Assembly: GCF_013200955.2 (NCBI RefSeq)
Contig: NZ_CP053697.2
Span: 1,364,001 to 1,428,000 of the forward strand
Direction of reading: 5' to 3'
Origin: Pseudomonas campi
GTDB lineage: Bacteria; Pseudomonadota; Gammaproteobacteria; Pseudomonadales; Pseudomonadaceae
DNA: 64,000 nt
In this document: piece by piece, positions 21,136-61,560 of the stretch
How positions within the stretch are numbered: position 1 is the stretch's first letter
How the letters are laid out: each line of letters starts with the position of its first letter
The notes under the pieces: generated by a model
The model's database searches: none
What the model was told of the DNA's origin: nothing
Seen by the model: only the letters and a program-made list of their open reading frames with translations
Position numbers and translations under genes: made by a program

Positions 21136-21447
21136 AGAACCTGTTTACGATCTTCTGAATTAGAGCCAGGCAAGGCGCAACGACCAGCGGGAGTAACAGC
21201 CTCAGGCTGGCCCGAAGGGTGAGCGCTAGCGAATCAAACGGTCGAGAGACGAGCGCAGCGAAGTAACAGCCATCGGCTGGCCCATAGGGCGAGCGAAGCG
21301 AGTCAAGCGCAGTTTACGAGCTGTAAATGAGCATGACTCGTTTAACTCGCCCTCCGGGTCGCGCTGAAGCGCGTTAGCCGCAAGCGGCTTTCCGAGACCG
21401 CTTTTAACGCCGCATGGCCGACAGTCAGGAGATCGTAAATAGGTTCT
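21136..21447. repeat. Long hairpin-forming dispersed element, copy 1 (expanded)
   Basis: It begins AGAACCTGTTTACGATCTTC and ends, read on the other strand, AGAACCTATTTACGATCTCC, so the ends are inverted repeats of about 24 bp. The centre carries AGTTTACGAGCTGTAAATGAGC, the same core as copy 2 (33341-33482). This copy is 170 bp longer because the left arm holds two direct repeats and the right arm a matching GC-rich stretch. The right edge coincides with the stop codon of the minus-strand META-domain gene (21447-21449). No gene is encoded. Confidence 0.85.
21192..21306 (+). repeat. Two imperfect direct repeats inside element copy 1
   Basis: Units 21192-21237 and 21262-21306 share the order AGTAACAGCC, then GGCTGGCCC, AGGG, GAGCG and a final TCAA, at about 80% identity. 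They account for most of the extra length of copy 1 compared with copy 2. Confidence 0.7.
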
Positions 21448-21845
21448 CAGCCTTCATCCGGCCACAGGCGGATCGGTTTGCCTGTGGCAGGCCACAGGCG
21501 CAGTTGGCCAATGCCCGAGACATCCCAACGCTGCACCTGACCCAGGGCTTCGAGGAAGCGCTGTTCCTGCTCCATCAGCGCCGGGGCACACATCTTGCGG
21601 GTGCTGCCGGCGGTTTCGAAGCTCAGCTTGTCGCCCTCACGGGTGTAGGCGGCGAACCAGTGGTTGCAGCCGGCGGTGCCGTAGGCGCGGCCATCTTCGC
21701 CGAGGGTCACGGTCAGGTGGCTGCGGTCGATCAGCGGACGCTCGCCAATCCACTCGACCCGATAGGTCTTGTCGCTTTCCAGTTGCACCGGGTCGGCGGC
21801 GCAACCGGCCAGGCTGGCGGCGAGCAGGGCGAGGGCTGGTTTCAT
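21447..21845 (-). CDS. META-domain (HslJ-like) lipoprotein
   Basis: A 132-residue lipoprotein: lipobox ASLAGC with Cys15 after a short hydrophobic segment. The mature part matches the META/HslJ domain (TYRVEWIGERPLIDRS, GRAYGTAGCNHWFAAYTREGD, KMCAPALMEQEQRFLEAL), a fold linked to heat and novobiocin resistance in HslJ. The pair of Cys residues in GTAGCNHW and RKMCAP probably forms a disulfide. Its ATG overlaps the stop of the upstream gene (21842-22279). The stop codon lies exactly at the edge of the repeat element 21136-21447. Confidence 0.85.
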   Translation of the reverse strand: MKPALALLAASLAGCAADPVQLESDKTYRVEWIGERPLIDRSHLTVTLGEDGRAYGTAGCNHWFAAYTREGDKLSFETAGSTRKMCAPALMEQEQRFLEALGQVQRWDVSGIGQLRLWPATGKPIRLWPDEG

Positions 21846-33294: not shown

Positions 33295-33320
33295 AGAAAA
33301 AAGCCGGGCATTGCCCGGCT
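33295..33320 (-). terminator. Intrinsic terminator of the purM-purN-DUF3108 operon
   Basis: On the minus strand AGCCGGGC/GCCCGGCT forms an 8-bp stem with a three-base loop, followed by a run of T residues. It lies beyond the repeat element 33341-33482, which therefore separates the last gene's stop codon from its terminator. Confidence 0.8.
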
Positions 33321-33340
33321 CGTTCACGGCAGGAGTGCGA

Positions 33341-33482
33341 AGAGCCTGTTTACGATCCTCTGAATTAGAGCCAGACAAGGCAAAAATGGCCGAGGAAGCG
33401 GAGTTTACGAGCTGTAAATGAGCATTCCGAGGCCATTTTTAACGCGGTATGGCCGACAGTCAGGAGATCGTGGACGGGTTCT
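33341..33482. repeat. Long hairpin-forming dispersed element, copy 2
   Basis: 142 bp with inverted ends: AGAGCCTGTTTACGATCCTC on the left and, on the other strand, AGAACCCGTCCACGATCTCC on the right. The arms GGCCGAGGAAGCG... and ...CCGAGGCC and the AAAAATGGCC/GGCCATTTTT pair make a long stem around the core AGTTTACGAGCTGTAAATGAGC. Its right edge provides the first base of the neighbouring gene's stop codon on the minus strand, exactly as in copy 1. Confidence 0.85.
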
Positions 33483-34198
33483 TACTTCTTGATGCCTTCG
33501 ACGGCGCGCCCACCCACGGTGCCGTCCTTGAGCATGATCTGGTATTCCTTGCCGTCCTTTTCCACCTGGTGCAGACGCACCAGCAGGTAGTCCCAGTCCT
33601 TGGCGAACCACAGCACGGTCTTGCGGCTGCTCTGGGTCGGGTCGCGCACGCGCTCGACCTTGATCGCGTCGATCAGCCCGGCCTGGGTGCGCACGCGCTC
33701 CTCGCCCAGCACGCGGAAGTCGTAAACCTCGATCTCGTCGCCGTCGACCACCTGGTAGCTCATGCTCTGCTTGCCGGCGGCGACGTCTTCCTGCAGCACC
33801 AACTGGTAGGTCGACTTGTCCTGCATGCCACGGTTGAGGGCGAAGCGCACCGGCTCGCCACGATCGCTGCCGAGTACCTGCTTCTCGGTCCAGTCGAAGT
33901 CGTGCTCGATCTGCTTGGCCTTGCCCAGGCCGCTGCGCTCGAAGCGGTAGGTCAGCGGCAGGAAGGTGCCGCTCTCGACGCGAAAGGTGCTGACTTCGCT
34001 GAGGCTGGCGACCAGCATGGCCGCTTCGAACGTCAGCTCCCAGCGCCCGTTGTCCAGGGCCTTCAGGCTGCGCCCGGCAGTGCCGCTGATCGGCACCTGT
34101 TTCCAGTCGGCGGTGTAGCTGGCGGAAAACGGTTTCAGTTCGAGGGCCTGCACCGGCAGGGCCAGTACGGCGAGCAGCAACAACAGGACGCGGGGCAT
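33482..34198 (-). CDS. DUF3108 family periplasmic protein
   Basis: A 238-residue exported protein of the DUF3108 family. The signal peptide is residues 1-18 (PRVLLLLLAVLALPVQALE). The mature part is beta-rich (KPFSASYTADWKQVPISGTA, RWELTFEAAMLVASLSE), ending with a conserved-looking WDYLLVRLHQVEKDGKEY. The function is unknown; the gene follows purN in Pseudomonas. It starts 10 bp after purN, so is in the purine operon. Its stop TAA shares its last base with a repeat element. Confidence 0.85.
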   Translation of the reverse strand: MPRVLLLLLAVLALPVQALELKPFSASYTADWKQVPISGTAGRSLKALDNGRWELTFEAAMLVASLSEVSTFRVESGTFLPLTYRFERSGLGKAKQIEHDFDWTEKQVLGSDRGEPVRFALNRGMQDKSTYQLVLQEDVAAGKQSMSYQVVDGDEIEVYDFRVLGEERVRTQAGLIDAIKVERVRDPTQSSRKTVLWFAKDWDYLLVRLHQVEKDGKEYQIMLKDGTVGGRAVEGIKK

Positions 34199-55377: not shown

Positions 55378-55464
55378 CTGCTTGCCCTCGGAAGGGTTGG
55401 CGGGCCGTCCCGTCTTGGTCGTCTGCACCACGGTCGTCCGTGGCTGAAATTCTTTTGCCGGCTT

Positions 55465-59831: not shown

Positions 59832-59903
59832 GGGTAGACCTCCAGTTCTAGGGAATACGGGCAGGAGCAGCGCGGCACGTGCCTGGCTAGCCAGGTGGCG
59901 CGT

Positions 59904-60003
59904 TCTCCCGGGCTTTTATCCCGCCGTGTAACCCCGAACGAGGTCGCCAACTCTCGGACCAGTCACTTGCCGTTCTGTTAAGAGCGGCGAGCCGGAACCC
60001 TAG
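59904..60003 (-). promoter_or_regulatory. Guanidine-I (ykkC) riboswitch, copy 2
   Basis: Read on the minus strand it begins CTAGGGTTCCG, contains ACTGGTCCGAGAG and ends ACACGGCGGGATAAAAGCCC plus GGGAGA, the invariant order of the ykkC subtype 1 guanidine aptamer. It lies about 70 bp upstream of the copy 2 binding-protein start. A perfect CCTGGCTAGCCAGG palindrome (59882-59895) just beyond the aptamer could be part of the expression platform; no T-run follows, so control may be at translation. Confidence 0.95.
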
Positions 60004-60272
60004 TCAGCCATTGCAAATTGTCGTGCCGCGCCCCTTGCGGGGTGCTTCTGCATGTTTTAGCTAAAGCGAACATCGTGCCAGCTGGCGCAAAGCCCTTGGC
60101 TTGGCGCTTTGCGTGGAGAGCGTGGCAGCGGATGGGATCGCTTGTTGCGCCATCCTGGTGCGCAGTGTTCGTTGTTGGTGCCAGGGTTGTGCGTGAGCGT
60201 GTGTGCAGTCCCATGCCATGGCGCAACCGTAGTTGCGCCATTCGTGGATAAATCCGCTGCCACAACAGCCTG
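60004..60272. promoter_or_regulatory. Gap between the copy 1 gene and riboswitch 2, possible second promoter
   Basis: These 269 bp have no gene. On the minus strand GGCACGACAATTTGC near 60010-60026 looks like a sigma54 promoter but the GG and GC elements are 11 instead of 10 bases apart. A GCGCCCC/GGGGTGC hairpin lies around 60029-60044. The A/T-rich stretch GTTTTAGCTAAAGC is a short palindrome. An independent promoter for the second riboswitch is possible but not proven. Confidence 0.35.
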
Positions 60273-61334: not shown

Positions 61335-61395
61335 GGAAGACCTCAGGCGGATTAACGAAAGGCGCACGGGACGGCGGCAATCATGTGCTGCGCGT

Positions 61396-61495
61396 TCTCC
61401 CGGGCTTTTGTCCCGCCGTGTAACCCCGATCGAGGTCGCCGACTCTCGGACCAGTCACTTGCCGCTCTGTGCAGAGGGGCGAGCCGGAACCCTAG
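61396..61495 (-). promoter_or_regulatory. Guanidine-I (ykkC) riboswitch, copy 1
   Basis: On the minus strand it begins CTAGGGTTCCG, contains ACTGGTCCGAGAG, and ends ACACGGCGGGACAAAAGCCC plus GGGAGA. It differs from copy 2 mainly in the variable P1/P2 stems and one linker base (ACAAAAG instead of ATAAAAG). It lies 61 bp upstream of the copy 1 binding-protein start. Confidence 0.95.
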
Positions 61496-61560
61496 TCAAC
61501 CATTGTGTTGCGGTATTGAGGCGACTCCATGTGCCGCGGCAATCCTGTGCAGCGGCTGCT

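Follow-up and report, generated by a model that had tools for sequence, protein, structure and literature searches.

The two hairpin elements of the window (the whole 64,000-nucleotide stretch of DNA analyzed here) belong to one family of IS5-type MITEs whose duplicated target is a stop trinucleotide, so that insertion falls exactly on stop codons. The explanation that we favor overall, at a probability of about 85%, is that these MITEs enter a CTNAG target whose TNA reads as a stop, that harmful insertions are lost and that the cost of an insertion depends on its orientation. Since what is duplicated is a stop codon, the harmless pile-up of a mobile element on stops has a simple explanation at the sequence level. 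The kind of element, an IS5-type MITE, is already known; new are the stop placement, the orientation bias and a hairpin core common to different transposon ends. A search of the literature, as distinct from ISfinder and paper supplements, returned no published description of the family, and a text search with the core and end motifs gave nothing relevant among the matches listed.

Two copies of a modular MITE family

The window copies have ends and core in common; copy 1 is among the longest forms of the family and copy 2 is the basic form. Their features are as follows.

33342..33481, + strand: MITE copy 2, 140 bp from one TNA duplication to the other (142 bp with the outer A/T), GAGCCTGTTTACGATC ... 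GATCGTGGACGGGTTC; the site is empty in Pseudomonas guryensis
33342..33357, + strand: left terminal inverted repeat (TIR) of copy 2, matching the IS5-family TIR GAGCCTGTTCACGATC of the 841-bp IS
33466..33481, - strand: right TIR of copy 2
33482..33484, - strand: target site TTA of copy 2, the stop codon TAA of the minus-strand neighbor; abuts the right end; TAA stands at the same codon in the element-free P. guryensis
33339..33341, no strand: site of copy 2's second target duplication, a degenerate GAA (the left flank is CGAAG and the right flank CTTAC)
33369..33458, + strand: conserved core hairpin of copy 2, 90 nt, with a covarying stem, a near-invariant internal loop GCGGAG/TGAGCA and a TTTAC-NNNNN-GTAAA apical hairpin
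33301..33321, - strand: intrinsic terminator of the operon itself; the element now stands between the stop and this terminator, which in P. guryensis comes directly behind the stop
33482..34198, - strand: neighbor gene at copy 2 (DUF3108, PF11306); copy 2 is inserted at its stop codon
21137..21446, + strand: MITE copy 1 in its long, modular form; the duplications are 310 bp apart
21447..21449, - strand: target site TCA of copy 1, the stop codon TGA of the minus-strand neighbor; abuts the right end; the left counterpart CGCAG is degenerate; same TGA in P. guryensis
21311..21333, + strand: core of copy 1, AGTTTACGAGCTGTAAATGAGCA
21180..21309, + strand: hairpin modules added to the left arm of copy 1 (limits approximate), part of the size ladder
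21334..21391, + strand: hairpin module added to the right arm of copy 1 (limits approximate), part of the size ladder
21447..21845, - strand: neighbor gene at copy 1, with a META domain (PF03724); copy 1 is inserted at its stop codon

A first-pass annotation had described two hairpin copies with related ends, and both are present, the units proper running from 21137 to 21446 and from 33342 to 33481. Minus-strand stops do lie at their right edges, as it had noted (TGA, as TCA at 21447-21449, and TAA, as TTA at 33482-33484), and copy 2 does lie between the stop and the terminator of the operon, which stands beyond the element at 33301-33321. The annotation further had each right edge supplying a base of the stop codon; the elements adjoin the stops, but the outer T is the first base of the duplicated TNA rather than an element edge, which is why the element seems to supply it.

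The left end common to both window copies had no chance match in 100 shuffles of the window, and searching the 4.44-Mb one-contig Pseudomonas genome with it gave 46 matches at up to 3 mismatches, whereas a reversed control had no match. Further genomic places came from BLAST and from a search with the right end, and a scan of these loci established at least 68 full copies with both ends. The unit is GAACCTGTTTACGATC...GATCGTAAACAGGTTC with TNA duplicated, the ends being written (A)GAACCTGTTTACGATC. Its size (142-312 bp), non-coding interior and TIRs of ~16 bp are those of a MITE. The basic short form of 141-143 bp accounts for 37 of the 68 copies, and longer copies climb a ladder of 142/169/198/225/255/281/312 as modules of ~27 and ~57 nt are added to the left arm and one of ~56 nt to the right arm, all of these extra modules being hairpins. 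One copy of 53 bp (locus L050, ~2072-2124, genome ~3207071) keeps both end regions, has lost the core and has CTGAG on one side.

Target site and resident partner IS

Once oriented, the flanks of the copies have the consensus C T N A / G at the left end and T N A G at the right end; no base outside CTNAG is strongly preferred. Insertion is at CTNAG with duplication of TNA, which always reads TAA or TGA on one strand. The duplication is present in many copies and degenerate on one side in many, both window copies included.

A search for DDE transposases brought out a resident IS of 841 bp, present in three copies in the same genome, that ends in the same TIRs and uses the same target, and is thus the autonomous partner expected of a MITE. 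It has two ORFs, DUF4096 and DDE_Tnp_1, and all three copies have TTA duplicated with CTTAG on both sides. The DDE_Tnp_1 transposase places it in the IS5 family: NF033580 (the NCBIfam IS5 family model) scores 154 bits against a cut-off of 110, and PF13340 and PF01609 are both above cut-off. Its TNA duplication would be compatible with a place in the IS1031 subgroup of the IS5 family, for which a 3-bp TNA duplication is a criterion. Two of the three IS copies are on the stop of a long ORF; at the third (L184) no stop of a real gene can be assigned, as there are only 22 open codons. The MITE and the IS share TIRs only, and the MITE interior is not of IS origin. From the matching ends we infer that the MITEs are probably moved in trans by the transposase of this IS.

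Intergenic hairpins are abundant in Pseudomonas, which would suit REP/REPIN-type palindromes moved by RAYT transposases. Those are palindromes of 20-40 bp, without a duplication and with a RAYT partner. The long TIRs, the TNA duplication and the IS5-family partner set the present family outside REP/REPIN and make this origin highly improbable.

Placement on stop codons

To place gene ends, we trained a home-made codon-model gene finder on the locus DNA and used its calls in place of an annotation. The first-pass annotation had proposed tabulating distances to the nearest stop codon, with random distances counting against stop placement; across the genome the TNA lies exactly on the in-frame stop of a neighbor (distance 0) in 47 of 68 copies, and the 21 copies away from stops are nearly all in non-coding DNA. 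The same loci have 177 non-coding CTNAG sites, and 46 of them (26%) fall on stops (Fisher p ~1e-9 against 47/68). The enrichment recurs in P. guryensis (20 of 25 copies, p = 9e-6) and, in another Pseudomonas species, for end type CAGGCCGTTGAAAAACG with the target CTAR (11 of 16, p = 8e-5), whose variants CTAG and CTAA also include stops.

Because the duplicated TNA always reads as a stop on one strand, the gene is left intact and the element lands mostly on stops. A stop codon with C before it and G after it would be a ready-made CTNAG target; after duplication the stop would still stand where it was, immediately followed by the element, and the transposase of the resident 841-bp IS would mobilize the MITEs in trans. 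We infer that selection then acts as a filter, in that insertions in genes and promoters would be lost and survivors would concentrate on stops. Target choice and the loss of harmful insertions account for most of the stop pattern. They predict no difference between stops and sites 1-59 nt downstream; against this, exact stops exceed such sites among the insertions (47:9) relative to the available sites (46:29, p = 0.006). This excess, like the bias described below, is left unexplained by target choice and loss. The first-pass proposal of site-specific insertion at stops therefore holds in effect, through CTNAG/TNA and ten pre-existing stops, and fails in its strictness, as 21 of 68 copies lie elsewhere.

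Empty sites in Pseudomonas guryensis

Sixteen stop-located copies (copy 2 and 15 others, copy 1 included) were compared with P. guryensis, as the first-pass annotation had suggested for related strains. At ten of the 16 sites the element is absent and the stop stands at the same codon, which gives the MITE its empty sites: copy 2, L009, L013, L021, L023, L025, L027, L030, L032 and L037, one of the nine sites other than copy 2 having a 26-nt difference behind the stop. The copy 2 locus of P. guryensis reads AAG-TAA-GCACTCC, with the operon terminator directly behind. Both species have a filled site at loci L024 and L034 and a partly filled one at L039; at L015 and L017 small deletions affect the junction. 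The presence of the stop at the same codon in the element-free genome means that at ten sites the stop is older than the insertion, and the insertions are recent enough to differ between sister species. These naturally occurring filled and empty alleles can be used for direct tests of mRNA ends and stability.

At the copy 1 locus (L311), the TGA of P. guryensis is the same but an unrelated repeat, CCCTCTCCC...CACAAGTGGGAG, follows it directly, so the site does not count as cleanly empty. Unrelated repeats may thus favor the same spot.

Orientation at stop codons

Of the 47 stop copies, 37 have their right end toward the gene and 10 their left end (p = 1e-4). P. guryensis has 18 right and 1 left among 19 single-ended cases at stops. 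Some insertions are shared by descent, which keeps these counts from being fully independent. Non-stop copies show no asymmetry of N (10 vs 11), and the CTAR end type has no orientation bias (6 left, 5 right).

In all 37 short copies the + (left-to-right) strand folds more stably than the - strand (mean -73 vs -61 kcal/mol), and with the right end facing the gene, the mRNA of the upstream gene carries the less stably folding strand. The opposite orientation would place the conserved RNA-like hairpin in the 3' UTR, which is likely to be costlier and is the likely reason for the bias. Operon polarity was also considered as its cause and dropped, since among the 10 left-facing copies at stops, 8 have genes of the same direction on both sides.

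The exact-stop excess over sites 1-59 nt downstream (p = 0.006), the strong bias at stops only (37:10, with none in non-stop copies) and the presence of two of the three IS copies on long-ORF stops could also be explained if the transposase, or DNA or transcription structure at gene ends, actively targeted stop or terminator regions and set the orientation beyond CTNAG. Such targeting sits poorly with the 21 of 68 copies elsewhere, nearly all of them in non-coding DNA, with the lack of conserved flank bases beyond CTNAG and with the CTAR end type, which is stop-enriched yet without orientation bias; we consider it quite unlikely. Selection for extending the 3' UTR, which the first-pass annotation had offered as its other explanation, goes beyond what the sequences show; the exact-stop excess together with the orientation bias leaves room for some orientation-dependent selection.

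The core hairpin and its spread in Pseudomonas

The inner 90 nt of the element are recognizable across Pseudomonas, with element matches in 108 of 149 genomes, many to the core only. Among 53 core sequences, 94.8% of the stem positions compared are paired and at 17 of 26 pairs both partners have changed, values that shuffles and slid controls fall far short of; the GCGGAG/TGAGCA internal loop and the TTTAC/GTAAA hairpin are nearly invariant. Strand preference is weak (95.6% of stem positions are Watson-Crick, with G-U at 44 vs A-C at 26). The covariation can fit either RNA structure or DNA-level palindrome correction.

The hairpin might be kept by palindrome correction and the mechanics of transposition on DNA, with no RNA or host function. 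The high Watson-Crick share and the modest lead of G-U over A-C look as if the arms were homogenized as DNA; but conservation across Pseudomonas and across end types is highest in the internal loop and apical hairpin, and the + strand is always the more stable fold. We hold this reading to be rather doubtful.

A host function is the subject of the contrary proposal, that copies are kept as a mobile terminator or 3' UTR stabilizer that helps the upstream gene. The stem, with its A- and T-tracts, resembles a bidirectional terminator, its pairs covary around near-invariant internal loops, its orientation at stops is biased, and SPRITE and ERIC offer possible precedents by analogy. Against it, a simple intrinsic-terminator scan, whose loop limit of 3-8 nt excludes the element's hairpin, detects the host terminator and gives no match at the element, and the insertions are mostly absent from the sister species, so that most have not been long conserved. 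Such co-option appears unlikely.

None of the 4227 Rfam models gave a credible match at the element, and phage records gave no match to it. Elsewhere in the window, three riboswitches score above their Rfam gathering scores within ~6 kb: two Guanidine-I (61395-61506; 59903-60014, minus strand) and one Guanidine-II/mini-ykkC (55401-55445, minus strand). Fourteen plasmid records match, mainly in the core; a P. tremae conjugative plasmid (NZ_CP066271.1, L216) carries a core-bearing element with CTAG at both ends, and a plasmid of Halomonas sp. PA16-9 (L217) carries the core at 87% identity outside Pseudomonas.

In one Pseudomonas genome (G078, L218-L257), MITEs with at least five end types carry the same core, several of them with extra hairpin modules. 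That genome also contains a 1333-bp IS5-group IS whose ends agree with one of the end types, and a 1672-bp IS1182 element whose ends approximately agree with another. We tentatively suggest, short of even odds, that one constrained hairpin module has been repeatedly captured by different transposase ends (two IS5 groups, IS1182 and further end types) and has spread through Pseudomonas as a mobile 3'-UTR RNA/DNA element with its orientation at stops under selection. If the core is functional, many Pseudomonas genomes (108 of the 149 sampled have matches) hold a transposon-borne 3'-UTR element.

Comparison with known systems

The target ambiguity of the present family recurs in eukaryotes: the NuwaII group of the PHIS (Harbinger-like) transposons duplicates TNA between C and G flanks, i.e., CTNAG, and PHIS transposases have been compared with those of bacterial IS5; the sections of that report on which we draw make no mention of stop codons (PMC4482050). 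In Streptococcus pneumoniae, BOX is a modular repeat and SPRITE a terminator-like repeat near gene 3' ends; both are unrelated in sequence to our family, SPRITE has 4-nt TIRs and no established duplication, and exact insertion on stop codons is not described for either in the portion of the source used here (PMC3049150). ERIC of the enterobacteria is, like our elements, a small TIR hairpin MITE, and its orientation-dependent action on upstream transcripts (PMC2229807) may by analogy serve as a model for the orientation bias; it differs in sequence, in its 127-bp length and in its TA termini.

Closer to home, the R0, R2 and R178 repeats of P. fluorescens are intergenic and MITE-like with a tail-to-tail bias, and R178, of 101 bp with an internal 11-bp inverted repeat and found in three strains (PMC2718517), could be the same core as that of our family. 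MITEPsy1 of P. syringae is an IS5-derived element of 100 bp with GGAAGGTCTGAAAAAGCC ends, a 4-bp duplication and 6 copies, for which transposition has been shown (PMC3189936). It shares with our family a non-coding interior, IS5-like TIRs, duplication of a stop-like target (CTAG or YTAA in MITEPsy1) and occurrence on plasmids and chromosomes (PMC3189936), whereas the present family is set apart by CTNAG with a TNA duplication, by its at least 68 copies and by its enrichment on stop codons.
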